Shown: positions 8,588-48,010 of the stretch, one piece after another
Position numbering within the stretch: position 1 is the stretch's first letter
How the letters are laid out: each line of letters begins with the position of its first letter
Source of the DNA: Anaerococcus degeneri
Lineage (GTDB): Bacteria > Bacillota > Clostridia > Tissierellales > Peptoniphilaceae
Reading direction: 5' to 3'
NCBI RefSeq assembly: GCF_017874475.1
Contig: NZ_JAGGLO010000002.1
Span: forward strand, 62,001 to 126,000
DNA length: 64,000 bases
The notes under the pieces: generated by a model
Told to the model about the DNA's origin: nothing
What the model saw: the letters and a program-made list of their open reading frames with translations, nothing else
Database searches by the model: none
Translations under genes and position numbers: made by a program

Positions 8588-8895
8588 TTAATGGTAATAA
8601 AATTTTTGCTAAAGCATCAGACCTACCAACCATTTCTTGTCAGAAATGGGGTTAGGGCTTCAACTGGTAAAATTTTTATGGTTCTCACAGTTTTTCAAGC
8701 AAGCATAGCTTGCGATGTAAAAACTGATGAGAATCCTTATGTAATTTTTAAAAAGCCCGTCCGAATATCACTTCTCTGAAGCTCTCCGTGCTACCGCACT
8801 ATTATTCGGCATAAAGATGCCAAATCAAGGCATCTTTATGTGGCTCGGTGAGGACCGATGCGAAAAATACGATCATTGATTCTAAAAAGATTACC
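8588..8895. repeat. structured intergenic repeat, copy A
   Basis: Positions 8588-8750 are about 90% identical by eye to 15722-15885 (copy B). The conserved core (8690-8745) folds as three stacked stems: GGTTCTCA with TGAGAAnCC, CAGTTTTT with AAAAACTG, and a GCAAGC-ATA-GCTTGC apical hairpin, followed by CTTATGTAATTTTT. A 5' part contains CATTTCT-TGTC-AGAAATG. The right part (8751-8895) is unlike the other copies: it holds CCGAATA...TATTCGG, an 11-bp hairpin ATAAAGATGCC/GGCATCTTTAT, and ends with the shared AAAAAGATTAC. It fills the hydC leader, in the orientation opposite to the gene. Confidence 0.8.
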
Positions 8896-8920
8896 TTCCT
8901 TATTAATATTCTATAATTCC

Positions 8921-8952
8921 ATAATATCAGAATGTGAAAACAATTTCAACAT
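8921..8952 (-). promoter_or_regulatory. hyd operon promoter with overlapping dyad (Rex-like?)
   Basis: Minus strand: -35 TTGAAA (8949-8944), 17-bp spacer, -10 TATTAT (8926-8921). An imperfect palindrome, ATGTGAAA-acaa-TTTC(a)ACAT, covers 8932-8952 and so overlaps the -35 box and spacer. It resembles the spacing of Rex redox-sensor sites (inverted TTGTnAA repeats around 4 nt), which often control clostridial hydrogenase genes, but the match is partial. The predicted 5' leader is ~340 nt. Confidence 0.55.
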
Positions 8953-8976
8953 CTATATTCATTATTATTTAGGGAT

Positions 8977-8991
8977 TGATAATAATTATTA
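8977..8991. promoter_or_regulatory. Fur/PerR-like 7-1-7 box upstream of hyd promoter
   Basis: TGATAATAATTATTA matches the TGATAAT-N-ATTATCA 7-1-7 consensus at all but one position. It lies ~30 bp upstream of the hyd -35 box. Because Fur-family sites are AT-rich, chance occurrence in this genome is a real possibility. Confidence 0.45.
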
Positions 8992-9012
8992 AAATCGTTT
9001 TCAATACAGAAA

Positions 9013-9044
9013 CAAAAAAAGACTTGAAAATAAATTTCAAGTCT
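9013..9044 (-). terminator. terminator of the M29 aminopeptidase gene
   Basis: Perfect 9-bp stem GACTTGAAA / TTTCAAGTC with a 5-nt loop, followed leftward by TTTTTTTG. Confidence 0.9.
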
Positions 9045-9063
9045 CGTCTGTATCAAAATTTAC

Positions 9064-10296
9064 TTAAAATGCCCAGTTGCCGTCCTTAAAGATTGGGAAA
9101 GCTTGGCCGTTTTTGTAGCCTATGATTTCAAGGTCCTTATCTCCAACCATGAAGTCTTCGTGAATTAGGGAATCATTTAGGCCCACTGAATTGACTTCGC
9201 TATCATCAAGGTCAGCTCCGCCCTCAACGCAGGTTGGGTAAGCCTTGCCTAAGGCAAAGTGGCAAGACGCATTTTCGTCAAAAAGGGTGTTATAAAATAA
9301 GATATTTGAATTTGAAATTGGGCTGTCATATGGAACTAGGGCGATTTCGCCAAGATTTTTTGAGCCCTGGTCAGATTCAAGCATCTTTGCTAGGGTATCC
9401 TTGCCTTCCTTGGCATCAAAATCAATAACCACCCCATCCTTGAAGGTAAATTCAAAGTGGTTTATAACCACACCATTGTAAACAAGAGGTTTTGTAGCCA
9501 CAAGCCTGCCGTCAACTCCGTCGTATTGTGGAGCTGTGAAGACTTCTTCTGTTGGCATATTTGGAATAAACCTGTCGCCCTTTGCATTTTTAGAGCCAGC
9601 AGACATCCAGATGTGGTTTTTTGGCAATTTCACCTTTAAATCTGTCCCATTGGCTGATTTATAATGAACATAGTCAAATTGGTGGCTATTTAAAAAGTCT
9701 GCCTTGTCATCAAGGGTCTTAATGTGGTCTTCCCAATTTTTCTTAGTCTCTTCCCAAGATTCAGAAACTCTGCACACATCAAGGATGACTTCCCAGAGCT
9801 TATGGCAGGCCTCCTCGCCCTTGAGGTCTGGAAATACTTTTTCTGCCCATTTCACAGAAGGAACTGAAATTACAAGCCAAGACACAATGTCATTCATAGT
9901 ATATTTTACAAAGTCCTTTAACTTTAATGAACGAGCCTTAACAGCCTCAGAAATCTTAGCCTCATCAAGGCCTTTGAGTAAATCTGGATCATCGGACACA
10001 ATAGAAATCCTATTTGACCTCTTCTCAGCAATCTGATAGCGAGATTTTTCAACAACCCAGTCAGGCACTTCATTTAAGGTCTCTTGACTTTCGTATTCGT
10101 AAGCAAATCTTGTAAGAGCATCGTCAACCCAATTCACAGAAACCTTTCGAGCACCTTTTTCATAAGCCGCCTTAGTCATAAAACGAGCAAGTTCAGGCGA
10201 CTCAACAGGAGAAGAAATTAAAACATCCTCCCCATTTTGCACATTAACACCAAACTCAACAGCAAGCCTGGCGAAATTTTCTATTCTTTTTTGCAT
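9064..10296 (-). CDS. M29-family aminopeptidase (AmpS/PepS-like)
   Basis: 410 residues from the ATG at 10296, where GGGAGGAATT precedes the codon; four extra upstream residues lack support. Motifs for the two-metal site of M29 peptidases are visible in the C-terminal half: 'NMPTEEVFTAP', 'LGEIALV', 'ENASCHFALGKAYPTCVEGG' and 'NDSLIHEDFMVGD'. The enzyme removes N-terminal residues from peptides in the cytoplasm. It is monocistronic, flanked by a terminator and the divergent pepF. With the M3B and M42 enzymes nearby it fits a peptide-fermenting lifestyle. Confidence 0.92.
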   Translation of the reverse strand: MQKRIENFARLAVEFGVNVQNGEDVLISSPVESPELARFMTKAAYEKGARKVSVNWVDDALTRFAYEYESQETLNEVPDWVVEKSRYQIAEKRSNRISIVSDDPDLLKGLDEAKISEAVKARSLKLKDFVKYTMNDIVSWLVISVPSVKWAEKVFPDLKGEEACHKLWEVILDVCRVSESWEETKKNWEDHIKTLDDKADFLNSHQFDYVHYKSANGTDLKVKLPKNHIWMSAGSKNAKGDRFIPNMPTEEVFTAPQYDGVDGRLVATKPLVYNGVVINHFEFTFKDGVVIDFDAKEGKDTLAKMLESDQGSKNLGEIALVPYDSPISNSNILFYNTLFDENASCHFALGKAYPTCVEGGADLDDSEVNSVGLNDSLIHEDFMVGDKDLEIIGYKNGQAFPIFKDGNWAF

Positions 10297-10432
10297 AATT
10301 CCTCCCAATTTAAATCATTTATTACACTATACTCTTAATTTTATGCTAATAATCTTTTACTAAGGCTACAAAGTGATATAATAACAAGTAGTAAACCGAA
10401 TTTAAAATTATTTTTTATATAAGGAGAAAAAA

Positions 10433-12232
10433 ATGAAAAAAAGATGTGATGTTGACCCTAAAGAAACTTGGGCCATTGAAGACCTTTATGCGTCTGATGA
10501 CGCTTTTTATGCTGATCTTGAGAAATTAGCCAGGATGGCTTCTGATTTTAAGGAAAAATATTCAGTTCTTGAGACTAGCGATGATGTTTATGAATCTCTT
10601 GAAGCTTATTCTGATATAATTTCCCTTACAGACGGACTTGGCACTTTTGCTGGAATTTCTAAGGAAACAGATGCAACAGACGATGCCATGGCAAAAAGAG
10701 ATGCCAAGTTTGGAAGCGAAGTTTCAAAGATTTTTGCCAAACTTTCTTTCTATGATTCTGCCCTTGTCAAAGTTGACAGCAAAGTCTTAGATGAAACAAT
10801 AAAAAACCACCCAAAATATGCTTATTACCTCAAAAGAATAAAGGATAAGGCAAAATATTTACTAGACGAAAAAACCGAAGCAGCCCTTGCTGCCCTTGCC
10901 CCAACCTTTGATGCACCATATACAAATTACAACGATATGAGATATGGGGATATGAAGTTTGAAAATATCGACCACAATGGCGAAGAAGTTGTCCTTAACC
11001 ACAACACTTTCGAAGAATACCTCGAAGGCGAAACTGATACAGAATTAAGACGCAGAGCCTTTGCTGACTATCACAAGGTTTTGGCAGCCTACCAAAACGC
11101 TGACGCTTCAGTTTATAACAACCTTATCCAAAATGAAAAGATAATGGCAGATCTTCGTGGCTATGAATCAGTATTCCACTATCTTCTAGCCCGCCAAGAC
11201 GTGGACTTTGATGTTTACGAAAACCATATTGATATAATTATGGAAAAACTTTCTCCAATTATGAGAAAATATGCAAAAATCATCAAAAACCACTACGGCC
11301 TAGACGAAATGACCTATGCAGATTTGAAACTCGCCATAGACCCAGAATATGAGCCAAAAGTTTCTATCGAAGAGGCTAAATCCTATATAGTTGACGGACT
11401 TTCTCCACTAGGCGAAGAATATATCGGCTACATGAAAAAGGCCTTTGATGATAGGTGGATAGATTATTCACAAAATATCGGTAAGAGAACAGGCGCTTTC
11501 TGTTCATCTCCTTACCCATCCCATCCATTCATCATGACAACTTATAACGAATCTATGAGCCAAGTTATGACCCTTGCCCACGAACTAGGCCACGCTGGTC
11601 AAGGAATCCTTTCAAATGCCAACCAAAACGCCCTATCATGCGATATGTCCATGTACTTTGTAGAAGCTCCATCAACAGCCAACGAAATCACCATGGAAAG
11701 ATATCTACTTAAAAATGCCAAGGACGATAGGGAAAAACTTTGGGTCCTATCAACCATGATTGGCAAGACCTACTACCACAACTTTGTAACCCACTACCTA
11801 GAAGCTACCTTCCAAAGGGAAGTTTATAGACGTGTAGAAAAGGGCGAAAGTCTCTCAGCCGCAGATTTCAACCAAATCTTTAAGGACAAACTAGAAAAAT
11901 TCTGGGGCGATGCAGTAGTCTTAAACGAAGGAGCAGAACTCACCTGGATGAGACAACCTCACTACTACATGGGCCTATATTCCTTCACCTACCAAGCAGG
12001 ACTTACAATAGGTACAGCCATATCAGAAAAAATTGTCCACGGCACAGAAGAAGACAGAAAACAATGGTTAGAAGTCCTAAAACTAGGCGGATCTATGGGA
12101 CCAATAGACTTAGCAAAGGCTGCTGGTGTTGATATGACAACAACAAAACCAATAGAAGATGCAATAGACTTCATCGGCCAAATCGTTGATGAAATTGATG
12201 GGCTTTTGAAAAAACTAAATATGTATAAGTAA
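10433..12232 (+). CDS. pepF: Oligoendopeptidase F (M3B)
   Basis: 599 residues, the usual size for PepF. The zinc-binding motif 'TLAHELGHAGQG' (HExxH) is at ~residue 383, with the third ligand expected in 'EAPSTANEITMERYLL'. AAGGAGAAAAAA lies before the ATG, and TATAAT at 10377-10382 is a likely -10 box. The enzyme cleaves oligopeptides internally in the cytoplasm. Monocistronic, closed by a strong terminator. Confidence 0.95.
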   Translation: MKKRCDVDPKETWAIEDLYASDDAFYADLEKLARMASDFKEKYSVLETSDDVYESLEAYSDIISLTDGLGTFAGISKETDATDDAMAKRDAKFGSEVSKIFAKLSFYDSALVKVDSKVLDETIKNHPKYAYYLKRIKDKAKYLLDEKTEAALAALAPTFDAPYTNYNDMRYGDMKFENIDHNGEEVVLNHNTFEEYLEGETDTELRRRAFADYHKVLAAYQNADASVYNNLIQNEKIMADLRGYESVFHYLLARQDVDFDVYENHIDIIMEKLSPIMRKYAKIIKNHYGLDEMTYADLKLAIDPEYEPKVSIEEAKSYIVDGLSPLGEEYIGYMKKAFDDRWIDYSQNIGKRTGAFCSSPYPSHPFIMTTYNESMSQVMTLAHELGHAGQGILSNANQNALSCDMSMYFVEAPSTANEITMERYLLKNAKDDREKLWVLSTMIGKTYYHNFVTHYLEATFQREVYRRVEKGESLSAADFNQIFKDKLEKFWGDAVVLNEGAELTWMRQPHYYMGLYSFTYQAGLTIGTAISEKIVHGTEEDRKQWLEVLKLGGSMGPIDLAKAAGVDMTTTKPIEDAIDFIGQIVDEIDGLLKKLNMYK

Positions 12233-12234
12233 GC

Positions 12235-12266
12235 AAAAAACCTCCCGAATTTGGGAGGTTTTTTTA
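12235..12266. terminator. bidirectional terminator
   Basis: AAAAAACCTCCC / GGGAGGTTTTTTT with a 6-nt loop, between pepF and the convergent flavin-oxidase-like gene. Confidence 0.92.
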
Positions 12267-12277
12267 TCCAATAAAAC

Positions 12278-12754
12278 TTATCTTTCGTTTACCTTCTTAC
12301 CAGTCATATAAGCAATATGAAAAGCCAGCATCTTTGTGTTTTTAAAGCCTGCTTCCATATTTTCGTGGACTAGGTCCACATTTGGGTAATATTTTTTGGC
12401 AAGTCTTACCATGGCTTCTCTAGCAAAGTCTTGGTCTGTTATTTCTTCTACTAGACCATAAGCCACTACAGAAGAGGTGATTTTTGACCAACCATCTTCT
12501 GATATTCCCTCTTCTAGGATGGCTGTAAAACATGCCTTTGGATCTTTTTCTATGCAGTCAATCTTATAGCCAGTCTTTGTGCCGTGAAAATATAGGGCCT
12601 GGTTTTCTTCGTCATAGACGTAATTTAAAGGAAAACCATAAGGATAACCGTCATCTCCGTGTAGGCAAAGGACACCCCTTGCCGCCTTATGAAGGACTTC
12701 CTTGGTTCTTTCTGGACTTAATTCATTTTTTATTTTTCTGATTTTTCTAAACAT
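12278..12754 (-). CDS. Pyridoxamine 5'-phosphate oxidase-fold protein, NimA-like
   Basis: 158 residues of the split-barrel FMN-binding fold, with 'RGVLCLHGDDGYPYGFPLNYVYDEENQALYFHG' matching the N-terminal strand pattern of the NimA/5-nitroimidazole reductase-like group. These proteins bind FMN and reduce small molecules; a few members confer metronidazole resistance, but most are uncharacterised housekeeping flavoproteins. It follows the M42 peptidase by 10 nt and is probably cotranscribed. No resistance phenotype can be inferred from sequence alone. Confidence 0.8.
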   Translation of the reverse strand: MFRKIRKIKNELSPERTKEVLHKAARGVLCLHGDDGYPYGFPLNYVYDEENQALYFHGTKTGYKIDCIEKDPKACFTAILEEGISEDGWSKITSSVVAYGLVEEITDQDFAREAMVRLAKKYYPNVDLVHENMEAGFKNTKMLAFHIAYMTGKKVNER

Positions 12755-12764
12755 AAATTTTTCC

Positions 12765-13790
12765 TTACTTACTAATAAGATTCTCTAGCAAATCAAAAAG
12801 TGATTTTATTGCCTTTTCATGTGTCCTCTCGTATCCGTGGCTTGCTGCTACTCCGCAACCTACTAGGGCGTGTCTGTAGTCATAGTCGCTTGCTACTGCA
12901 GCTGAGGCGTCTGATCCGTAGAATGGGTAGATGTCTAGGCCGTAGTCTAGGTCTAATTCTTTGGCTATTGCAACTAAGTCGTTTGTAAGGTCATAGTTAT
13001 ATGGACCTGATGAATCTTTGGCGCAGATTGATAGTTTTAGTTCGTCACAAGCGAGGTCATCGTGGACTACTCCCATGTCAACTGCCACCATATCTCTGAT
13101 GCCTGCTGGGTGGCCGGATGCAGCACCGTGGCCTACTTCTTCGTAGATGGTAAACATCATATAAAGTGGACGGTTTATCTTTATATTTTTATCCTTAATT
13201 TCCTTAGCAAGGGCAAGGAGGACTCCGGCAGATGCCTTGTCATCAAGGTGGCGGCTTTTGACAAAGCCATTGTCTATCCTAAATCTTGGGTCAAGGGAGA
13301 TAAAATCACCGTTTCCTATGCCAAGTTTTTCTGTTTCTTCTTTAGAATGGGTTATGGCGTCAATTACAACTTCCATGGTTTCGTCGTTTCTCTTTGCTTC
13401 TCTAGGGGCGTCTGAACCGTGAACGGCTGGATTATTTAGCCTAACCACACCTGTATATTCCTTGCCAGATCTTGTGTGGATTTTGACATTTTCAAATTCC
13501 ACAAAATTAAGTGGGAAACCACCGAGCGTTGTCACCCTGAGGGCCCCGTTTGCCTTAACTGACCTTACCATAAGTCCCAAGGTATCAATGTGGGCAGAAA
13601 GCAAGAGGCCATTTTCCCCTTCCATTTCATTGATTGGGACAATGACGTTGCCCTTGTTATTTTGGTATGGTTTGTAGCCCAGTTTTCTAAATTCATCCAT
13701 CAAATATTTTTCAGCTAGTTTTGTGAAACCTGTTGGTGATGGGGTATTTACTAGATTTTCTATATATTTAGTAATTGTAGAGATTTCCAT
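12765..13790 (-). CDS. M42-family metallopeptidase
   Basis: 341 residues. The co-catalytic two-metal site is visible: 'SAHIDTLGLM', 'SRHLDDKASAG', 'IYEEVGHGA' with the catalytic Glu pair, 'VAVDMGVV' and C-terminal 'VAASHGYERTH'. M42 enzymes are large cytoplasmic aminopeptidases or deblocking enzymes (related to glutamyl aminopeptidase and FrvX). Length and motifs are normal. First gene of a two-gene unit with the flavin-oxidase-like gene. Confidence 0.93.
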   Translation of the reverse strand: MEISTITKYIENLVNTPSPTGFTKLAEKYLMDEFRKLGYKPYQNNKGNVIVPINEMEGENGLLLSAHIDTLGLMVRSVKANGALRVTTLGGFPLNFVEFENVKIHTRSGKEYTGVVRLNNPAVHGSDAPREAKRNDETMEVVIDAITHSKEETEKLGIGNGDFISLDPRFRIDNGFVKSRHLDDKASAGVLLALAKEIKDKNIKINRPLYMMFTIYEEVGHGAASGHPAGIRDMVAVDMGVVHDDLACDELKLSICAKDSSGPYNYDLTNDLVAIAKELDLDYGLDIYPFYGSDASAAVASDYDYRHALVGCGVAASHGYERTHEKAIKSLFDLLENLISK

Positions 13791-13867
13791 TTTTTTAATC
13801 CTTTCTTATAGTATAATATCAATAATCATATTATATGATAAGAAGAAAATTAATAAAGGAATGTAAA

Positions 13868-14386
13868 ATGAAAAGATATATTTTTAAGGAAAAATTCTTT
13901 AAAATCACAGATAAATATTGGATAAAGGACGAAGACGGCAATGATTCTTTTTATCTAGACCAAGATTTCACCTTTATGGGCTACAAGGCAGCGGTCTATG
14001 GACCTGATAGACAAAGGCTTTTTAGGATTGAAAAGAAAATCCTATCCCTTTTGCCAAAGTTTTTTGTAAATTTTGAAGACGGGTCGGAAATGCTTGTAAA
14101 CAAAAGATTTACCCTGCTTAGAAAGTCTATTGATGTGGACACAGATTTTGGAACAATTAATCTCAAGGGATCTGTTTGGGACTACAATTTTATCATAAGC
14201 CTTGATGGGCAAAAAATCGGCGAAGTTTCTAGGAAATTTATTTCACTCACCGACCAATACGCCCTTACAGTTTATGACGAGGACTACACCCTAGCCATGA
14301 TAGCCCTTGTAATTTGCCTAAACAAAATCCATGATGACGAGAAAAGTGCAGCAAATGCCGGAAATGCCGGCGGAGGAGAACAGTAA
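13868..14386 (+). CDS. LURP-one-related (tubby-like fold) protein
   Basis: 172 residues from the ATG at 13868, chosen over an upstream frame because AAAGGA precedes it and the product then begins 'MKRYIFKEKFFKITDKYWIKDEDG', the family N-terminus. LURP-one/YxjI-type proteins fold as a tubby-like beta barrel; biochemical role in bacteria is unknown. The C-terminus is a short Ala/Gly/Asn-rich tail encoded by a repeated AAATGCCGG unit. One base separates it from the downstream membrane-protein gene. Confidence 0.75.
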   Translation: MKRYIFKEKFFKITDKYWIKDEDGNDSFYLDQDFTFMGYKAAVYGPDRQRLFRIEKKILSLLPKFFVNFEDGSEMLVNKRFTLLRKSIDVDTDFGTINLKGSVWDYNFIISLDGQKIGEVSRKFISLTDQYALTVYDEDYTLAMIALVICLNKIHDDEKSAANAGNAGGGEQ

Positions 14387-14387
14387 G

Positions 14388-14852
14388 ATGCCACAACTAA
14401 TTTTTATCCTAGCGAGTCTATTCGCCCTAGCTGGGCTTTATAACATGTACTTGTTCGGACAAATCAAAGAAAAAATCAAATTCACTACAACAGACCTGGC
14501 AGTTCTAGGTATGATGGTAGTCATGTTCATCATTTACTATTGGGTTTTTAAACCTTATCCAATAAACGCCCTAGCCATCTCACTAGCCATGATATTTTGG
14601 AACTACACAGGGACAATAGCCAGGGGCTTTAGTGACGAATATGTATTTACCAACAAGCTAAACCCCTTCATTAACAAAAAAGTACCCCTAGGAGAAATAA
14701 AATCAGTCACCCTATCAAGGGCCAACAAAAATCTCCTCTTAATGGTCTACCTAAAAACCGCCAACAGCCAAGACAACATGAGCTTTGCCTTTTCAAGAGA
14801 AAAAGACCTAGTGAAAATACTTAAAAATCAAAAGGTGAATGTGATAAATTAG
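14388..14852 (+). CDS. Small membrane protein, unknown function
   Basis: 154 residues from the ATG at 14388, which has GGAGGAGAA upstream inside the end of the previous gene; a longer overlapping frame from 14331 is less likely. Three hydrophobic segments (~4-22, 36-53, 60-78) are followed by ~75 polar residues with a beta-rich, PH-like pattern ('EYVFTNKLNPFINKKVPLGEIKSVTLSR...LLLMVYLKT'). Not assigned to a named family. It is translationally coupled to the LURP-one protein, so the two may work together. Confidence 0.7.
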   Translation: MPQLIFILASLFALAGLYNMYLFGQIKEKIKFTTTDLAVLGMMVVMFIIYYWVFKPYPINALAISLAMIFWNYTGTIARGFSDEYVFTNKLNPFINKKVPLGEIKSVTLSRANKNLLLMVYLKTANSQDNMSFAFSREKDLVKILKNQKVNVIN

Positions 14853-14930
14853 GGGAAATGTTGAAAAAAATAGACTAAGTGGGCATATTAATAGTAACCA
14901 TGAGTTCTATTATAATGCACGGAATAACCA

Positions 14931-14963
14931 AAAAAAGACGAGCCTATCCGTTCGTCTTTTTTA
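14931..14963. terminator. bidirectional terminator before nagB
   Basis: AAAAGACGA / TCGTCTTTTTT stem with a 10-nt loop. It serves the plus-strand pair ending at 14852 and nagB ending at 14988. Confidence 0.88.
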
Positions 14964-14987
14964 GTAAAAATATTTAAAACTTACCAC

Positions 14988-15710
14988 CTAGCCATTATAA
15001 GCTTCTTCATCTACAAACAAATAAACATTTGGGTGTAGGTTTAAAAGTCCACATGGAAGGTCAGTTGAAATTTTATCATCGTTTAAGATTCTTTTTACTG
15101 CTTCGTGTTTGTTTTTGCCGCTGGCTAGAACTATTAGGGTTTTTGCGTTGAATACTTCTTCAACTCCCATAGAAAGGGCGTATTTTGGCACTTCGTCTTC
15201 ATTTTCAAAAAATCTTGAGTTGGCTTCTATGGTTGATTCTGTTAATTTTATTATAGAGGCACGTCTATTTAATTTTTCTGCTGGTTCGTTGAAGGCTATG
15301 TGGCCATTTGGTCCAAGGCCCAAAATTTGAATATCCCTTTGTCCAAATTCGTCTAATACTTTCCTATATTCTAGGGCGTATTTTTCGTCATTTTCTGGTG
15401 CATAAGGTAGATTGATATTTTCTTCTTTTATAGCTACGTGGTCAAAGAGGTTTTCGTGCATGAAATATGAATAAGATTGTTCGTTTGATGGGTCTATACC
15501 AACATATTCATCTAAATTCACACTTTTTGCATATTTAAAAGAAATTTCTCCTTCTTTTTGGGCAGCGATTAAGTTTTTATAAAGACCAATAGGGCTTGAT
15601 CCTGTTGCAAAACCAAACTTTATCTGTGGTTTTTCCATCATGTAATTTATTACAAACTCACTGGCTTTTTTGCTCATATCTTCATAATCTTTGCATACTA
15701 TTACTTTCAT
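14988..15710 (-). CDS. nagB: Glucosamine-6-phosphate deaminase
   Basis: 240 residues, full length for NagB. Motifs: phosphate-binding 'GFATGSSPIGLYKNL', 'SVNLDEYVG' and catalytic 'LGLGPNGHIAFNEPA'. It converts glucosamine-6-phosphate to fructose-6-phosphate and ammonia, linking amino-sugar use to glycolysis. The RBS is AAGGAG; copy B of the structured repeat ends immediately before it and fills the leader. nagA is not adjacent. Confidence 0.96.
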   Translation of the reverse strand: MKVIVCKDYEDMSKKASEFVINYMMEKPQIKFGFATGSSPIGLYKNLIAAQKEGEISFKYAKSVNLDEYVGIDPSNEQSYSYFMHENLFDHVAIKEENINLPYAPENDEKYALEYRKVLDEFGQRDIQILGLGPNGHIAFNEPAEKLNRRASIIKLTESTIEANSRFFENEDEVPKYALSMGVEEVFNAKTLIVLASGKNKHEAVKRILNDDKISTDLPCGLLNLHPNVYLFVDEEAYNG

Positions 15711-15721
15711 TTATTTCTCCT

Positions 15722-15961
15722 TTAATGGTAATAAAAATTTTTGCTAAAGCATCAGTCCTACCAACTATTTCTTGTCAGAAATGGGGTTAGGACTTCAATA
15801 GGTAAATTTTTTATGGTTCTCACAGTTTTTCAAGCATGCAAAGCTTGCGAAGTAAAAACTGATGAGAAGCCTTAAGTGACTTTTTCTTAAAATTACGATG
15901 AATAAGAGTAACATAAAGAAAATTTCACTGAACGTTCGTTGAAAAAGATTACGTTCATTAC
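15722..15961. repeat. structured intergenic repeat, copy B
   Basis: Left 164 bp nearly identical to copy A. Core stems: GGTTCTCA/TGAGAAgCC, CAGTTTTT/AAAAACTG, GCATGC-AAA-GCTTGC (one mismatch). The second module is present: a GTGA/TCAC outer pairing around ATTAC-GATGAATAAGA-GTAA, a divergent form of the GACGAAnAGGA loop of copies C and E. It ends in GAAAAAGATTACGTTC. The left end abuts the nagB RBS, as copy A abuts that of hydC. Confidence 0.82.
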
Positions 15962-16012
15962 TACTAATATATTATTACCCATATATTATGATTTTACCAT
16001 TATAAGCAAAAT

Positions 16013-16038
16013 AAAAAACCCGACCTGAGCCGGGTTTG
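16013..16038 (-). terminator. terminator of the rubrerythrin gene
   Basis: AAACCCG / CGGGTTT stem read leftward into a TTTTTTATTTT run, 10 nt beyond the stop. Confidence 0.88.
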
Positions 16039-16047
16039 ATGTTTGTT

Positions 16048-16641
16048 TTAGTAATTGAAAGCTGCTACTTCGAACCATTCTTGTGGGTGGTGGCATGCTG
16101 GGCAAATCTTTGGAGCTTTTTTGCCTTCATATAAGAAACCACAGTTTCCACATTTCCAGATTACTGATTCTTCTTTTTCGAATACTGTGCCGTTTTCTAC
16201 GTTATCGTGTAGTTTTTGATACCTATCTCTATGTGCACCTTCAGCCTTAGCAATGTTTCTGAATGCTCTTGCGATTTCGTCAAAGCCTTCTTCTTCTGCT
16301 ACGTCTGCGAATGATGGATACATATCTTCACATTCTTCGTTTTCGCCATCGATAGCGCCTTGAAGGTTTGTTAATGTGTCATGCCAAATTACTGGCCAAG
16401 CTGTATAACCTTCTGTAAGTTCGATTGTTTCAAGTTTAAATTCTTCTCTTAGGAATTTATAGAATCTTGCTGCGTGTTCTTTTTCGTTCATAGCTGTTTC
16501 TCTAAAGATAGCAGCGATTTGTCTATAACCTTCTTTTTCTGCAACTTTTGCAGCATATGTATATCTCATGTTTGCTTGTGATTCACCAACAAAAGATGTG
16601 ATTAGGTTTTGTGCTGTTTTACTTCCCTTTAATTCTGCCAT
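16048..16641 (-). CDS. rbr: Rubrerythrin
   Basis: 197 residues. The N-terminal four-helix diiron domain carries the paired ExxH-type ligands ('ESQANMRYTYAAK', 'ETAMNEKEHAARFYKF', 'DVAEEEGFDEIARAFRNIAKAEGAHRDRY'). The C-terminal rubredoxin-like domain has both CxxC pairs ('CGNCGFLYEG' and 'CPACHHP'). It reduces hydrogen peroxide in the cytoplasm of anaerobes. Monocistronic with its own strong promoter. Intact cysteines here contrast with the degenerate rubredoxin-like domain in the gene at 37537. Confidence 0.96.
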   Translation of the reverse strand: MAELKGSKTAQNLITSFVGESQANMRYTYAAKVAEKEGYRQIAAIFRETAMNEKEHAARFYKFLREEFKLETIELTEGYTAWPVIWHDTLTNLQGAIDGENEECEDMYPSFADVAEEEGFDEIARAFRNIAKAEGAHRDRYQKLHDNVENGTVFEKEESVIWKCGNCGFLYEGKKAPKICPACHHPQEWFEVAAFNY

Positions 16642-16683
16642 AATAATCTCCTTTATAATATTAGTTCATTTCCTGATATTCAT

Positions 16684-16775
16684 ACTATATTATTAATTAT
16701 TCGTTTTGTCAAGAATGATTCTAAAGTTCTAATGAATCTAAACTTGATATATATAATCATTATCATTATATCTTT
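16684..16775 (-). promoter_or_regulatory. rubrerythrin promoter and possible PerR/Fur-type site
   Basis: Minus strand: -35 TTGACA (16712-16707), 17-bp spacer, -10 TATAGT (16689-16684). About 40 bp further upstream, around 16753-16771, is ATAATCATTATCATTATAT, which contains an ATTATCA half-site typical of Fur/PerR boxes. The promoter is convincing; the operator is tentative. The rest of the 352-bp gap to pgi contains only AT-rich sequence and the pgi promoter (TATAAT at 16970-16975). Confidence 0.6.
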
Positions 16776-16993
16776 GCAATCGTTATAAGTATTTGATTTT
16801 AGCTATTTATTAAAATTATATTTCACCAAATGTTTTAAGTGTTTTTGCTGCTTGTCTGTTAACTTAAAAAAGTGATAACAGTTATCAATTTGTATAATAT
16901 CCAAAATTATTGATTATTTTTAATTATGATTTTAAAGGTTTTTACTCTATCGAGACAAATTGGGGTATAATTATATAAAGCAAAGGAGGCTAT

Positions 16994-18265
16994 ATGAAAG
17001 TAGATTTTAGCAATGTTAATTTAGATAATATAGGAAAATACGAGGAAAAAGCCCTTGCCGCTTTTGAATCTCTTATGAACAAAGACGGCGCTGGCAACGA
17101 CTTTTTAGGCTGGATTGATAGGCCAGTTGACTATGACAAAGACGAGTTTGAAAGAATTAAAAAAGCAGCAGCAAGGATTCGTGAAAATTCTGATGTCTTT
17201 GTTTCCATTGGTATAGGTGGATCTTACCTTGGTATTAAGGCCATTGATGTAGCTTGCGATACTTACTTTGATTCAAAGAGAGATACAAAAGTTATCTACG
17301 CAGGCAATCAAATTTCTAGCCAATACATGGTTGAACTCTTAGATTATTTGAAGGATAAGGATTATTCTGTAAATGTTATCTCAAAATCAGGCACAACCAC
17401 AGAGCCAGCCATTGCCTTTAGGTTTTTAAAAGAAGCTTTAGAGGAAAAATATGGCAAGGAAGGTGCAAAAGAGAGAATTTTTGCAACAACAGATAGGGCC
17501 AAGGGTGCACTTAAAGAACTCGCCACAAATGAAGGCTATGAAACATTTGTAGTTCCAGATGATATTGGTGGCAGATTTTCCGTAATATCTGCAGTAGGCC
17601 TCTTGCCACTAGCAGTAGCAGGTGTTGATATAGACGAATTTATGGCTGGTTTTGCTGATGGTAGAGAAAAATACACCGTAAAATCAATGGAAAATGACGC
17701 CATCAAATACGCAGCCGCAAGAAATATGCTTCATGAAAATGGCAAGGAAATTGAAGTCCTTGTAAATTATGAACCAAAATTACAATATATTGCAGAATGG
17801 TGGAAGCAACTCTACGGCGAAAGCGAAGGCAAAGACGGCAAGGGAATCTTCCCAGCAAGTGTAAATAACACTACAGACCTTCACTCAGTAGGCCAAATGA
17901 TCCAAGACGGCAAGAGAAATCTCTTTGAAACTGTAATCGAAGTTGAAAGTGTAGACAAAGATATAGAAATAAAAGAAGACGCCGATAACCTTGACGGCCT
18001 AAACTACCTAGCAGGCAAAGATATGTCCTATGTAAACAAACAAGCTATGGAAGGCACAACAATGGCCCACGTAGAAGGCGGCGTTCCAAATATCAGAATA
18101 AAACTAGATAGGGTAGACGAAAGAAAACTAGCCGAACTTTTCTATTTCTTTGAAATTGCAGTAGGAGTATCAGGCTACATCCTAGGAGTAAACCCATTCA
18201 ACCAACCAGGAGTAGAAGCTTACAAGACAGCCATGTTTAAACTACTTGGTAAACCTGGATACTAA
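16994..18265 (+). CDS. pgi: Glucose-6-phosphate isomerase
   Basis: 423 residues, slightly short of the usual ~450 for Firmicutes. AAGGAGG precedes the ATG. Signature regions: '[13 protein letters not shown]', '[15 protein letters not shown]', '[21 protein letters not shown]' and C-terminal '[12 protein letters not shown]'. It interconverts glucose-6-phosphate and fructose-6-phosphate. Monocistronic; the transcript probably ends at the G/C-closed hairpin within repeat C. Confidence 0.96.
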
Positions 18266-18417
18266 TAATGGTAGCAAAAAAATCGTTAGCGATTTTTTTG
18301 CGGTTCTCACAATATATCGAACACGAAGTGTGAAGATAGATTGATGAGAAACCTTATGTAATTTTTTCATAAGAACGCGACGAAAAGGAGCGTTCGTTGA
18401 AAAAGATTACGTTCTCT
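18266..18417. repeat. structured intergenic repeat, copy C
   Basis: Begins TAATGGTA directly after the pgi stop. Its 5' part is a 12-bp hairpin GCAAAAAAATCG/CGATTTTTTTGC (18274-18301) that can act as the pgi terminator. The core is GGTTCTCA/TGAGAAaCC, CAATATATC/GATAGATTG and ACAC-GAA-GTGT, then CTTATGTAATTTTT; module two is AACGC-GACGAAAAGGA-GCGTT; the end is AAAAAGATTACGTTC. Base pairs differ from copies A and B in compensating pairs. Confidence 0.82.
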
Positions 18418-18418
18418 A

Positions 18419-18440
18419 CACCCCAGCCTTAGCTGGGGTG
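18419..18440. terminator. hairpin CACCCCAGC/GCTGGGGTG, first of two
   Basis: Perfect 9-bp stem with a short CTTA-type loop, followed by GTTTTAATT. An almost identical hairpin sits at 18759-18780, each directly after a GATTACGTnCTnTA repeat end, so hairpin and repeat end appear to be one duplicated unit. Terminator activity is plausible but the U-run is weak. Confidence 0.55.
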
Positions 18441-18446
18441 GTTTTA

Positions 18447-18563
18447 ATTATAAGTAAAATTTTTGCGGTCTTCACAATTTCTCAAGGTGCAAAGCACCGT
18501 AGTAGAAATTGATGTAGAACCTTATGTAATTTTTTATACATGATGCGACGAATATAATGCTAG
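18447..18563. repeat. structured intergenic repeat, copy D
   Basis: Core GGTCTTCA/TGTAGAACC, CAATTTCT/AGAAATTG and GGTGC-AAA-GCACC, followed by CCTTATGTAATTTTTT and a shortened second module 'GCGACGAATATAATGC'. In the outer stem two adjacent pairs are swapped relative to copies A-C (T-A to C-G and C-G to T-A), a compensatory change. The right end is replaced by a strong terminator hairpin. Confidence 0.78.
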
Positions 18564-18564
18564 T

Positions 18565-18611
18565 AAAAAACATCGGTCAAGCCGTAAGGCCATAAATGAC
18601 CGATGTTTTTT
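18565..18611. terminator. strong hairpin terminator between repeats D and E
   Basis: AAACATCGGTCA / TGACCGATGTTTTTT, 10-bp perfect core with a 17-nt loop and U-runs on both strands. It may terminate transcription through the repeat cluster from either side. Confidence 0.85.
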
Positions 18612-18635
18612 GCCTTATTCATCATTTTGTAGAAA

Positions 18636-18761
18636 GCTTTAGTTTTCGTAGAAAATTATAGAATAAGCTTATGTGATATTCAGTTTAAATTGCGACGAAT
18701 AGGAGCGATTTAGACTAAATATCACTGAGTATTATGTATAAAAAGATTACGTACTTTACAC
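18636..18761. repeat. structured intergenic repeat, copy E (module 2 form)
   Basis: The first module is degenerate, but the second is the best preserved: GTGATAT...ATATCAC encloses AGTTTAAATTGC/GCGATTTAGACT around the loop GACGAATAGGA. Two T-G wobbles pair on the plus strand only, hinting that the plus strand is the RNA sense. It ends AAAAAGATTACGTAC, followed by the second CACCCCAGCC/GGCTGGGGTG hairpin (18759-18780). Confidence 0.75.
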
Positions 18762-18793
18762 CCCAGCCCTGGCTGGGGTGCTTTAATGATACT

Positions 18794-18817
18794 AAAAGAC
18801 CTCAACCGAGGTCTTTT
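18794..18817. terminator. terminator of the ABC exporter gene
   Basis: Perfect AAAAGACCTC / GAGGTCTTTT stem with an AACC loop, 9 nt beyond the ABC stop codon. Confidence 0.85.
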
Positions 18818-18825
18818 GATTTATT

Positions 18826-20298
18826 CTACTTATTAATCCTTATAAGATTAAAATTAGAATTCTTCATAAATATTTCATCGTGGCTTATAACAATAACTAG
18901 TTTCCCTTTCCTATTAAGGTCCATAATTAAGTCTAAGACTTTGCCTTTAACTTCTTTATCCAAAAAGTTTGTTGGTTCGTCAAAAATATATAGGGACTTG
19001 TCGGTTTTTATGGCGTATTTTAATTGAGCCAATTTTTTCTGACCTGATGAAGCTTTTATTTTATCTTTTAGGACTCCATATTCGCTTATAAGAGGGTTAG
19101 CTGGGATGTAGACTAAATCTTCAAATAGGACTTTTGAATTTTTATCAACTAGTTTATTGTTTACAAAGATTTTTCCCTCGTACCTAGTTGTAAGGTTCAT
19201 TATGGCCTCTACCAGAGTCGTTTTTCCTATCCCATTATCTCCTACAATGAGGTTGATTTTTCCTTGTTTAATCTCTTGGTTAAAGGCCTGGTGAAGCCTT
19301 TCTCCCTTACTTCCCAGGCTTATGTAATCTTTTATTTCTAAGGATTTTATCTTAGCCTTGTCAAAGCTTACAGGGGTCATATTTATAAATTCATAAAAAG
19401 AATCCATGGCAGGCTTGCCAGATACGTACTCTCTCCTGGTATTAAAGGTATCAAGCATAGGATCCCAAAGAGAGCTGATGTAGATTGACACAGCAGCATA
19501 AGACCCTGGGGTCATCTTGCCCTTTATGATTAGGATAATAGAAATAATTGTTGTTAAAGTGATGGCTATATTTAAAGTTCCGTAGACAAAAATATTGTAA
19601 ATTAGACTTTCGTAGCGGACTTTTTTTATGAGATTTGTGAAAAATCTATTAAAAAAATCTCTAATTGGTGGAAGTTGCTTATCTCTCAAAAACCTCTCTT
19701 CCTTGCTCAAATTATTAGTATCTAAGAGATATCCCTTAACATTTTTCATATCGTCCAAGTGGTTTGAGGAATAATCCGAAATCTTCTCCTCCCTCTTATA
19801 GGAAACCAGAGCTGCTATGGGAGCTATAATCACAAAGGCTATTAAAAGGTAAGGAGAGATGAAAAATACAATTATGCAAATTGCCACAAATTTAAGGGCG
19901 TTTAAAAATATCCTCAGGGTATTTTTGTAGATAAAGGGCTGGACAATTTCAAAATTTTGCCCTAATTCTTGGTTTATCCTCGCCTGGTCGATATTGTAAA
20001 CCTTACTATCATAGGTCTTTAAGGCCAAATCAAGCTTTTCAAATTGCTTTAGATAAGCCTTGGCGTCGTTTTTACCAAAATAATAATCTTCAAGGACATA
20101 AAAAATATGGATACCAATATCAAGTAAAACCATGATTACAATATGCTTGATAGTCATATCCAAGTCTTTTAAAATAGAAAAGTCAATGGCCTTTGCAGTA
20201 TTGATGGGAATTAACAATCCTAATCCGATTACAATAAGCCTAATTATCAAAAGCTTTATAAATTCTTTCTTGTCCGTCAAATAAAAAAATCTCAACAT
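18826..20298 (-). CDS. ABC transporter, fused membrane and ATPase domains
   Basis: 490 residues, short for a one-polypeptide exporter (usually ~570). Five or six membrane segments occupy ~residues 15-300, and an ATPase domain follows with Walker A 'VGDNGIGKTTL' and Walker B 'SLYIFDEPTN'. The signature reads 'ASSGQKKLAQL' instead of LSGGQ, so the third position is Ser. The loop between Walker A and the signature is shorter than usual. The RBS is AAGGAGG. It follows the Xre-type regulator by ~80 bp and likely exports a peptide or other small molecule under its control; the cargo is unknown. Confidence 0.85.
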   Translation of the reverse strand: MLRFFYLTDKKEFIKLLIIRLIVIGLGLLIPINTAKAIDFSILKDLDMTIKHIVIMVLLDIGIHIFYVLEDYYFGKNDAKAYLKQFEKLDLALKTYDSKVYNIDQARINQELGQNFEIVQPFIYKNTLRIFLNALKFVAICIIVFFISPYLLIAFVIIAPIAALVSYKREEKISDYSSNHLDDMKNVKGYLLDTNNLSKEERFLRDKQLPPIRDFFNRFFTNLIKKVRYESLIYNIFVYGTLNIAITLTTIISIILIIKGKMTPGSYAAVSIYISSLWDPMLDTFNTRREYVSGKPAMDSFYEFINMTPVSFDKAKIKSLEIKDYISLGSKGERLHQAFNQEIKQGKINLIVGDNGIGKTTLVEAIMNLTTRYEGKIFVNNKLVDKNSKVLFEDLVYIPANPLISEYGVLKDKIKASSGQKKLAQLKYAIKTDKSLYIFDEPTNFLDKEVKGKVLDLIMDLNRKGKLVIVISHDEIFMKNSNFNLIRINK

Positions 20299-45826: not shown

Positions 45827-47749
45827 TTAATAGATTGACTCTCTTGACTTAGAATCTCTTTCTTCAGAGATTTTTGCAATAAAGTCAGCAAGTTTAACGT
45901 CTTTTGTTTCTTCGCCGTCCCTATTTCTAACTGTGAGTAGTCCTGATTCGATTTCCTTATCACCTACTACTAGCATGTAGTTTGTTCTCATCATTTGAGC
46001 TGATCTAATCTTGTAGCCTACGCCTTCGCTTCTTTCGTCTACCCCTACCCTGAAACCTGCATTTTCAATTTCTTTTGCTATTTCATGGGCCTTGTCAGCA
46101 AATCTGTCAGCTACTGGAATTAATTCTACTTGTCTAGGGTTAATCCAAAGTGGGAACCTGCCTGCAAAGTGTTCTGTAAGAACGCCGATAAATCTCTCGA
46201 TTGAACCAAGTAGGGCCCTGTGAAGCATTACTGGTCTCTTCTTTTCGCCATTTTCGTCAACATATTCTAGCTCAAAGTTGGCTGGAAGTTGGAAGTCAAG
46301 CTGGATTGTACCGCATTGCCATTCCCTCTTAGCTGCATCTAATAGGTGGAAGTCGATTTTTGGACCATAGAAGGCACCATCACCTGGGTTTATTTGGTAT
46401 TCAATTCCACGTTCTTCTAGGGCTTTCTTTAATTGTTCTTCAGCGAAGTCCCAATCTTTTATATCTCCCATATAATCATCTGGTCTTGTTGATAATTCTA
46501 TTGTATATTTAAAGCCAAATGTAGAGTATAGAAGATCTGCAAGGTCAATCATTCTGTAAACTTCTTCCTTAATTTGAGATGGAAGGCAGTAAACGTGGGC
46601 ATCGTCTTGGGTGAAAGTCCTAACTCTAAATAGGCCGTGTAGGGTACCAGATAATTCGTGTCTGTGAACTTGACCAAATTCTGCAAGTCTGATTGGAAGG
46701 TCTCTGTAAGAATGTTGGCGAGATCCGTAAGTTAAAACTGAACCTGGACAGTTCATTGGTTTAATTGCATAATCTTCGTCATCAATCTTTGTGAAATACA
46801 TATTTTCCTTGTAATGGTCCCAGTGGCCTGATCTATGCCATAGGTCTTCATTTAGGATAAGTGGAGTTTTGATTTCTCCATAACCGCTATGGTCAAGAAC
46901 ACCCCTCCACCAGTCAAGAAGTTCATTCATTAAAATCATGCCATTTGGATGGAAGAATGGGAAACCTGGTCCTTCTTCGTGGAAAGTAAATAGGTCCATT
47001 TCCTTACCGATTTTTCTATGGTCACGTCTAGCTATTTCTTTTTGTAATTCTTCATATTCTTCAAGGTCTTTTGCCTTTGGGAAAGAAATGCCGTAGATTC
47101 TTTGAAGCATGGCCTTGTCAGAATCTCCCCTCCAATAAGCACCAGCTATTGCCTTTAATTTTATAGCCTTGATTTCCTTTATAGATTCAAGGTGTGGACC
47201 CCTGCAAAGGTCTGTGAAGGCATCGCCCATTTTATAAAGAGTGATTAATTCATCTGCTGGTAGGTCTTCGATTAGTTCTACCTTATAGTCTTGACCTTCT
47301 TCCTTAAACATCTTAAGAGCTTCGTCTCTTGAAACTTCAATTCTTTCTAATTTGAGGTCTTTCTTAGCAATTTCTTTCATTTTCTTTTCAATTTGCTCAA
47401 GATCTTCTGGAGTAAATCTGTGTTCAAGGTCCATATCATAGTAGAAACCATCTGCTATGGCAGGTCCAATGGCAAATTTTGTTTCTGGCCAAAGTTCTTT
47501 AATAGCAGCAGCCATTACGTGGCTTGATGTATGCCAGAAAATTTCCTTGCCTTCTTCATCTTCAAATTTTACAACTCTAAAATCAGCATCTTCATTAATT
47601 GGCTCAGCATATCCCATAACTCTGCCATTTACAACAGCACCTACAGCTGCCCTGTAAAGTCCCATTGATATGTCTTTTGTCACATCACCAACAAGGACGC
47701 CTTGTTCGTATTCTTTTACTGATTCGTCTGGTAATTTAATCTTAATCAT
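45827..47749 (-). CDS. thrS: Threonyl-tRNA synthetase
   Basis: 640 residues with TGS domain (1-62), editing domain ('HTSSHVMAAAIKELWPETKFAIGPAIADGFYYD'), class II core with motif 2 'FGQVHRHELSGTLHGLFRVRTFTQDDAHVYC' and motif 3 'HRALLGSIERFIGVL', and the anticodon-binding domain at the C-terminus. Charges tRNA-Thr. Preceded by a T-box leader and followed at 3 nt by the ATP-grasp gene. Confidence 0.97.
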   Translation of the reverse strand: MIKIKLPDESVKEYEQGVLVGDVTKDISMGLYRAAVGAVVNGRVMGYAEPINEDADFRVVKFEDEEGKEIFWHTSSHVMAAAIKELWPETKFAIGPAIADGFYYDMDLEHRFTPEDLEQIEKKMKEIAKKDLKLERIEVSRDEALKMFKEEGQDYKVELIEDLPADELITLYKMGDAFTDLCRGPHLESIKEIKAIKLKAIAGAYWRGDSDKAMLQRIYGISFPKAKDLEEYEELQKEIARRDHRKIGKEMDLFTFHEEGPGFPFFHPNGMILMNELLDWWRGVLDHSGYGEIKTPLILNEDLWHRSGHWDHYKENMYFTKIDDEDYAIKPMNCPGSVLTYGSRQHSYRDLPIRLAEFGQVHRHELSGTLHGLFRVRTFTQDDAHVYCLPSQIKEEVYRMIDLADLLYSTFGFKYTIELSTRPDDYMGDIKDWDFAEEQLKKALEERGIEYQINPGDGAFYGPKIDFHLLDAAKREWQCGTIQLDFQLPANFELEYVDENGEKKRPVMLHRALLGSIERFIGVLTEHFAGRFPLWINPRQVELIPVADRFADKAHEIAKEIENAGFRVGVDERSEGVGYKIRSAQMMRTNYMLVVGDKEIESGLLTVRNRDGEETKDVKLADFIAKISEERDSKSRESIY

Positions 47750-47773: not shown

Positions 47774-48010
47774 CGAATAAAAAACCGCCCTACTATCCCT
47801 CTAGGATAATAGGACGGCAATTTTCCGTGGTTCCACCTAATTTTTTACTCATTAAGGCTGTATCGTAGTCATACGTCTTGCTTATTCACAAGAAACTCAG
47901 GGTTGGTATTCAATCGAAATTTATCTAAGGCTTCTCACCGCCAGCCTCTCTCTGCAAGTAAAAATCAACCTACTAGTCCCGTCATCGTCTTTTATTATGT
48001 AAATACTTTA
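47774..48010 (-). promoter_or_regulatory. T-box riboswitch (Thr) of thrS
   Basis: Read leftward: AGAGAG and the stem I elements near 47950, a specifier-loop AATACCAACC with Thr codon ACC at 47907-47905, the T-box TAGGTGGAACCACGG (47839-47825), and the terminator CCGTCCTATTATCC/GGATAGTAGGGCGG (47817-47785) followed by TTTTTTA. Uncharged tRNA-Thr should stabilise the antiterminator and raise expression of thrS and the ATP-grasp gene. A promoter TTGCAA-17-TAAAGT lies just upstream. Confidence 0.93.

Follow-up and report, generated by a model that had tools for sequence, protein, structure and literature searches.

Structured intergenic repeats are scattered through a 64,000-nucleotide (nt) stretch of the Anaerococcus degeneri genome (contig NZ_JAGGLO010000002.1, positions 62,001 to 126,000; hereafter the window), where copies lie, among other places, beside the pgi gene and behind the ribosome-binding site (RBS) of a Glucosamine_iso gene. 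A first-pass annotation of the window had proposed that they form a modular family with five copies, here called A to E. A covariance model (R1), whose seed comprised copy C and four copies from elsewhere in the same genome, matched all five (E values 3e-23 to 5.7e-7), including A, B, D and E, which lie outside the seed; the proposed family is thereby confirmed. On balance, we consider it probable that the repeats are non-autonomous, mobile elements of the Anaerococcus family, similar in kind to the BOX repeats of Streptococcus pneumoniae and recognised as a folded single strand of one polarity. The basis is a shared anatomy, covariation, a strand bias, presence and absence at orthologous sites, nesting, a TA at the left and no detectable inverted repeats.

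Repeat copies in the window

Read by eye from copies at many loci, a unit of about 150-190 nt consists of TA, the left end ATGGTAG (variants ATGGTAAT, ATGCTAG, ATGATAAG and ATGGGAG), a hairpin P0 with a short loop, a three-part hairpin, a linker around CTTATG and a hairpin P4. The three-part hairpin is built from helix P1, a bulged A, helix P2, a purine internal loop, a variable P3 and a small, often RAA, loop. The P4 tip of many copies reads G-A, C-G, GAANA, G-A, with two G.A mismatches around a C-G pair and a loop of five bases. The right end is GATTACGTTCNTTA in type I copies; type II copies, like those of genus g52, finish near GTCGC. A unit is often followed by another palindrome or by a further unit, both tandem and nested units exist, and in some copies P0 or P4 holds insertions of two other repeats.

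Within the window, left ends lie outside the helices, with TA/ATGG at 8591, 15725 and 18268 and TA/ATGC at 18557. A further search returned copies A (E value 1e-6) and E (2.6e-10), and copies A and B are 91% identical across 151 nt. Folding of seven single copies showed that all were more stable than their shuffles (z -2.6 to -7.2; B -4.6, C -6.8). Taken as bare words, the motifs provide weak to moderate evidence, and it is the combined structure that carries the case: AAAAAGATTACGT with 2 mismatches gave 7 window hits against 5.1 expected, a number reached by 28 shuffles; CTTATGTAATTTTT with 3 mismatches gave 52 against 36.5 (reached by 1 of 100 shuffles); and GACGAANANNA gave 14 against 1.5 (0 of 100 shuffles), just 3 of the 14 lying inside copies.

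While all five copies are real, D and E had wrongly been taken as separate. They are one nested composite, in which E is inserted in the loop of D. A fold of 18440-18790 pairs the arms of D across E (z -11.5, 0 of 100 shuffles as stable), and a similar junction is present in five other composites (C15 in the same genome, G016:595759, G011:207915, G006:382750 and G011:459226).

Table 1 Repeat copies and associated palindromes in the window, with spans and E values of the R1 matches
Feature	Position	Strand	R1 match (E value)	Parts and context
Copy A	8591..8902	+	8680-8898 (7.7e-8)	Left end ATGGTAAT after TA; P0 with inserted second repeat; three-part hairpin 8680-8736; P4 enlarged by inserted repeat, about 8750-8860; right end AAAAAGATTACCTTCCTTA
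Copy B	15725..15961	+	15815-15932 (1.6e-12)	Left end directly behind antisense RBS of Glucosamine_iso gene (14988-15710, Pfam PF01182); P0 with inserted second repeat; hairpin 15815-15871; P4 15876-15928; tail and right end 15930-15961
Copy C	18268..18419	+	18302-18414 (3e-23; copy in seed)	Left end just past stop codon of pgi (16994-18265, Pfam PF00342); P0 18274-18301; three-part hairpin 18302-18353; P4 18356-18412, loop GACGAAAAGGA; right end TTCTCTA
Palindrome after copy C	18419..18440	+		Terminator-like, CACCCCAGCC TTAG CTGGGGTG
Copy D, 5' part	18453..18554	+	18467-18575 (5.7e-7)	Degenerate P0; three-part hairpin 18467-18521; P4 5' arm 18522-18546; loop GACGAATA
Copy E	18557..18728	+	18612-18729 (4.3e-8)	Within loop of D, behind GACGAATA; left end TA/ATGCTAG; long P0; three-part hairpin 18613-18667; P4 18668-18729, loop GACGAATAGGA
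Copy D, 3' part	18729..18758	+		P4 3' arm GTATTATGTATAAAAAGATTACGT (resumes 18729-18752), pairs with 18522-18546; right end
Palindrome after D/E composite	18759..18780	+		Resembles palindrome after C (family D6)

The second, smaller repeat within P0 of copies A and B (TAAAGCATCAG..CCTACCA..palindrome..GGGTTAGG.CTTCAA; about 8609-8664 and 15744-15800) was also seen in P0 at loci L003, L006 and L007, and its inner part recurs in other repeat contexts of the same genome. The third repeat, within P4 of copy A (GCCCGTCCGGCTCG..GAGGAC), was likewise found in P4 at L010, L044, L087 and L092, with related words elsewhere in these genomes. Copies at L033, L034, L080-L083 and L090 lie within TTAATCCGAGATTAA-like repeats, some of which run into a GC-rich repeat (CTCCGT..GGGGGAACCCC).

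Covariation, folding strand and distribution

Across 72 distinct matches, 88.7% of cells were paired, 40 of 44 pairs varied on both sides, and the covariation score was 0.469, compared with 0.060-0.120 when partners were slid and with 0 of 500 shuffles reaching it; since the rows share descent, the cells do not count as independent. In a second set, made up of 36 matches of which 31 came from other genera, the score was 0.442 against at most 0.105. Change on both sides was observed in 43 of 44 pairs among 96 rows, and likewise in 43 of 44 among 40 representatives below 80% identity. The compensatory stem changes noted in the first-pass annotation are thus real and strong when pair counts are set against shuffled and slid controls. 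That the fold is kept while the letters change suggests that the fold itself is used.

Hairpins in AT-rich DNA are prone to template switching, and stems of otherwise neutral repeats might therefore look compensatory through arm-to-arm repair. Nearly every copy indeed has stem sequences of its own, with 83 distinct P2/P3 modules among the 96 rows, nine of them common to 2-4 rows. Yet the bulged A, the purine internal loop and the tandem-GA/GAANA loop are conserved as unpaired features, which repair would erase, and the same fold is kept across genera. We regard this explanation as highly improbable.

On the 27 pairs that were Watson-Crick, G-T or A-C in at least 90% of representatives, G-T combinations outnumbered A-C combinations by 55 to 19 (p 3e-5), from which it follows that the given strand is the folding strand. 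The earlier suggestion of selection on RNA or on a cruciform therefore stands as far as a folded strand is concerned, whereas a cruciform, in which both strands fold alike, is disfavoured by this excess on well-aligned pairs.

The covariance search that had been proposed as a check of the family returned further copies both in the same genome and in relatives. The E values of models R1-R3 are rough owing to a short calibration. In the genome of the window (G000, 31 contigs), 21 matches were found at E<=10, of which 18 were at E<0.03. Fourteen of 31 Anaerococcus genomes were matched at E<=0.05, four of them with 10-18 matches. At the level of the order, 29 of 249 genomes were matched at E<=0.01, comprising 15 Anaerococcus, 13 from three other genera of the family, among them a genome with 12 matches, and one from another family; at the level of the class, matches at E<=0.001 were present in 6 of 391 genomes, two of them in further families. 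Outside the family, three genomes (G200, G272 and G390) hold single matches. Searches of more than 40 genomes used stricter filters and scored few candidates, such that absence there is weak evidence; in those searches the window's own genome gave 18 (R1, E<=1), 15 (R2, E<=0.01) and 9 (R3, E<=0.001) matches.

At the gathering threshold, Rfam 15 returned no match at the element in the window, and relaxed searches returned none covering it (8 loci with E up to 5; 11 loci with E up to 3). The sole Rfam match in the window was a T-box leader elsewhere (98.5 bits, 47807-47994 on the minus strand), upstream of the gene at 45827-47749. A glmS ribozyme (82 bits, L004 414-557, minus strand) lies about 1 kb from another copy in the same genome. 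Carriage by phages or plasmids was considered and rejected: exact loop patterns occurred in 1 and 18 viral contigs, among which the model gave just three matches (E 0.44-0.75), and blastn returned no plasmid match for a type I or a type II query and no phage match for the type II query, the one searched there.

Sites, gene context and probable mobilisation

Differences between orthologous sites show gain or loss of the element. Behind pgi, G000, G011 and G016 carry the element, whereas G002 and nine other Anaerococcus loci, read to 420 nt, are empty; the site behind rubrerythrin is empty in G000 but occupied in G002, G011 and G016; and behind rplS a copy is present in G000, G019 and G004 and absent from G002, G011, G016 and G042. 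The site of G016:1040949, upstream of one gene, is filled in G016 and empty in G000, G002 and G011. At pgi, the comparison is base-exact: G016 reads GGATAT, TAATGG...GTCGC, TAGATAG, and G002 reads GGATAT TAGATAG. This junction fits either a duplicated TA or no duplication with the TA belonging to the right end; several g52 copies have no TA at the right end. The left end was recognisable in 71 of 91 copies, and a TA stands before the left end in 45 of the 52 distinct left flanks. Terminal inverted repeats were not detected in 52 copies (longest matching run 4.27 vs 3.96 in shuffles).

Thirteen of 97 entries had no recognisable left end, and the remaining 84 left ends were classed by position: 18 at a stop codon, 7 at an antisense RBS, 9 at a terminator, 6 in the loop of another copy and 44 elsewhere. 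Control positions after TTA gave 3.6% for stop codons, 4.1% for RBS and 8.2% for terminators, and therefore just the stop-codon class is clearly enriched. Several of these stop codons are supplied by the left end itself (Y-TAA-TGG), so that the host gene is spared. Copies in sense orientation follow the stop codons of pgi, rplS (L19, identified by family scans), rubrerythrin, groEL, arcC (the host gene at L031) and guaA.

P0 is often, by eye, a hairpin flanked by an A-run and a T-run. A role as terminator was rejected because no P0 hairpin was called when 18200-18830 and 15690-16050 were scanned; the scan instead picked up the palindrome after copy C, a terminator at 18793-18818 and a palindrome at 16016-16037. 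A mobile promoter was likewise dropped, promoter-like hits being under the shuffled mean (1 vs 2.3; 1 vs 1.6). Hammerhead-like words (CTGATGA, GAAA) noticed by eye were set aside because CTGATGA belongs to a helix, and group II introns, bridge RNAs and HEARO-type RNAs were considered in general terms only.

The sense position behind stop codons, together with the strong covariation, the conserved unpaired motifs and the G-T excess on well-aligned pairs, would also suit a cis-acting or free regulatory RNA, such as a stabiliser, a processing site or a small RNA (sRNA) residing in 3' untranslated regions, that spread by recombination between genes. Against this, an opposite-strand gene has its RBS directly at 7 of the 84 left ends (eight by eye), and it is therefore the opposite strand that is in the mRNA there. 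Moreover, copies are patchy at orthologous genes, occur in tandem and nested, and have no constant host gene. A regulatory RNA is thus unlikely in our judgement, although it ranks first among the alternatives.

Our preferred interpretation is that an enzyme acting in trans would bind the folded strand and insert it at TA-containing sites. Copies would then survive where they are least harmful, notably right behind stop codons, with the left end supplying or following the stop. The strand bound could be RNA, copied back into DNA, or single-stranded DNA, and any effect on transcript ends would be a side effect, as proposed for BOX.

A miniature element of the IS200/IS605 type, as named in the first-pass annotation, would be mobilised by a Y1 transposase, which uses top-strand end hairpins and inserts on the 3' side of a short T-rich target, leaving no duplication. 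The lack of inverted repeats, the fixed left TA, the one-strand fold and the insertion in hairpin loops agree with this, and strand-specific hairpins beside a fixed target, as in IS200/IS605, are present here (G-T 55 vs A-C 19 and TA at 45 of 52, weaker on all pairs). Within the genus, however, Y1 genes are unrelated to the element, occurring in 10 of 15 genomes with it and 11 of 16 without (Fisher p=1). G002 has 10 element matches and no Y1 hit, and G043-G045 have 7-8 Y1 hits and no element match, although G016 combines 8 Y1 hits with 16 matches. Derivation from IS605 is accordingly unsupported, and we hold a Y1-type element to be doubtful, less likely than a regulatory RNA; an extinct or other HUH enzyme may be the mobiliser. 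Because Y1 does not track the copies, a folded-strand repeat moved by an enzyme in trans is put first, followed by a regulatory RNA, a Y1-type element and a guaA-type recombination site.

Several observations weigh against a mobile, folded-strand repeat. Neither a mobilising enzyme nor a transposition event came to light. The G-T excess falls on all pairs of the representatives (94 vs 66) and disappears in the 28 non-Anaerococcus rows (58 vs 55), where we take the outer P4 helix to be poorly aligned. The fitting of alignments A3-A6 to the model favours pairing and flatters the percentages; A3 retains two rows that match known copies on the opposite strand, and eight loci were omitted as sources of A4 and A6 (L039, L040, L078, L101, L102, L105, L110 and L111). 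Regarding insertion, pgi (G016 vs G002) is the sole base-exact junction. Joined flanks of nine sites were searched, and six had a junction-spanning match in another genome, of which sites 2, 3 and 7 aligned poorly and site 5 was read by eye. Presence and absence could also reflect repeated loss, and the right end is not uniform between types I and II. As to position, the 97 entries are 95 distinct copies (L257/L286 and L258/L287 were entered twice) and orthologous copies were counted repeatedly; the 9 of 84 left ends at terminators are not above the TTA control of 8.2%, inspection by eye puts one of the 18 stop cases (G011:208193) in the RBS class, and at least 5 of the 44 left ends classed as elsewhere are false.

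The guaA-end subtype and comparison with known systems

Type II copies begin with GAATGGGAG, the same sequence as guaA ends, and are located either at guaA or behind a conserved sequence ending in that core. This conserved sequence of about 110 nt ends in a short frame (..KEEWE-stop), was observed upstream of the type II copies L046, L088, L104, L105 and L108-L111, and is the putative right end of guaA-integrated elements. Among the guaA ends read in the genus, 3 of 29 carry the element directly. Of the matches outside the family, the one in G200 is at guaA, that in G272 about 120 nt behind guaA, and that in G390 at a guaA-like core. A strong match to Rfam SpR18, a Streptococcus sRNA, was noted about 180 nt downstream of a type II copy (156 bits, L250 1793-1923, plus strand).

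We opened six type II loci to 8 kb or more, and in five of them defence or mobility genes stood beside the element. In G001, a tyrosine integrase and NikA-like and VapE-like genes lie between two copies, pieces of a type III modification system are also present beside the element, and kdp-like genes (by eye) occupy the stretch between the second and third copies. G109 carries a type II restriction pair, followed by AbiEi/AbiEii and a type III methyltransferase; G146 a type II restriction pair; G200 a methyltransferase fragment; and G011 IetA/IetS. The sixth (L271, G085) is at the end of a phosphoesterase gene among apparent housekeeping genes. In a related genus, L268 (1645-13691) reads guaA, element, type II restriction pair, element, AbiEi/AbiEii and type III methyltransferase. 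L273 (4399-10393) reads guaA, element, ISL3 transposase, nested element and the IetA/IetS defence pair.

A further explanation is that integrative elements targeting the 3' end of guaA use the element as a recombination site or an end module, with the dispersed copies as derivatives. The guaA-end-like core of type II copies, the genes between two copies in G001 and the location of all three non-family matches at or near guaA or a guaA-like core are in line with this. So is the co-occurrence with an integrase (at least 84% identical, in 21 of 249 genomes of the order): the element is found in 10 of 21 genomes with the integrase and in 19 of 228 others (p=1.5e-5, not phylogeny-corrected). However, the other 11 integrase genomes had no match, and a fixed end of a guaA integrative element was therefore not upheld. 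The link is also non-significant within the genus (7 of 15 vs 3 of 16, p=0.14), few guaA ends carry the element, the type II copy L271 sits at a phosphoesterase gene, and type I copies lack a core at their right end. A search of 31 genomes for an empty type II guaA site joined to the right-hand flank gave just two unrelated hits with 1 mismatch, and in the loci examined 13 of 13 distinct contexts come after an element. On balance, we hold a guaA recombination site to be improbable and place it below a Y1-type element. In the literature, guaA is named along with integration sites and integrases, and the defence and mobility genes near guaA-type copies may therefore reflect merely a hotspot.

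Integron attC sites are recognised as a folded strand with extrahelical bases and form arrays. A folded-strand recombination site with an attC-like logic but without sequence kinship to attC, in which copies with the guaA core would delimit exchangeable cassettes behind guaA, several for anti-phage defence, and the same chemistry would have carried cargo-free units to other gene ends, is a slender prospect, rated lower than a guaA recombination site. No attC boxes were noticed by eye, and an integron integrase was not searched for.

Miniature elements derived from IS200/IS605 (PATE-like) have no inverted repeats, carry end hairpins, are recognised on one strand and have a fixed left target. 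The Anaerococcus repeats are like them in these properties and unlike them in that no transposase has a matching distribution. Like miniature inverted-repeat transposable elements (MITEs) of the RUP or Correia type, they are short, structured, intergenic and present in many copies. MITEs are marked by terminal inverted repeats and target duplications (PMC3049150); terminal inverted repeats were not found in the Anaerococcus element, whereas presence and absence at orthologous sites were.

If our preferred interpretation, a mobile repeat recognised as a folded strand, is true, it adds a small mobile repeat family spanning several genera of anaerobic cocci, with clear covariation and, unusually, without inverted repeats. 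It would also make testable how enzyme-less BOX-like repeats move and whether RNA or single-stranded DNA is recognised. The subtype with a guaA-like end, often beside restriction, AbiE or Iet genes, may show how defence genes get exchanged. As a caution, strong covariation at a dispersed repeat need not imply a regulatory RNA.

A search limited to the papers accessible, covering intergenic repeats and structured RNAs of Anaerococcus, Finegoldia and Peptoniphilus, yielded nothing on this element. BOX elements (boxA-boxB(n)-boxC) are described as intergenic repeats that are small and composite, are predicted to fold extensively, contain repeated inner modules, form clusters and insert into one another; they are likely parasitic and can affect co-transcribed genes (PMC3049150, PMC10969869), and their terminal inverted repeats are said to resemble ISSpn2 (PMC3049150). 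Judged by these descriptions, the Anaerococcus element is similar in being small, folded, intergenic, clustered and self-inserting. It differs in its hosts and in that terminal inverted repeats were not detected, and it has tandem and nested units with no A-B(n)-C order seen. The BOX-like kind already suggested in the first-pass annotation is supported; the family is apparently undescribed, and BOX elements are its nearest kind.

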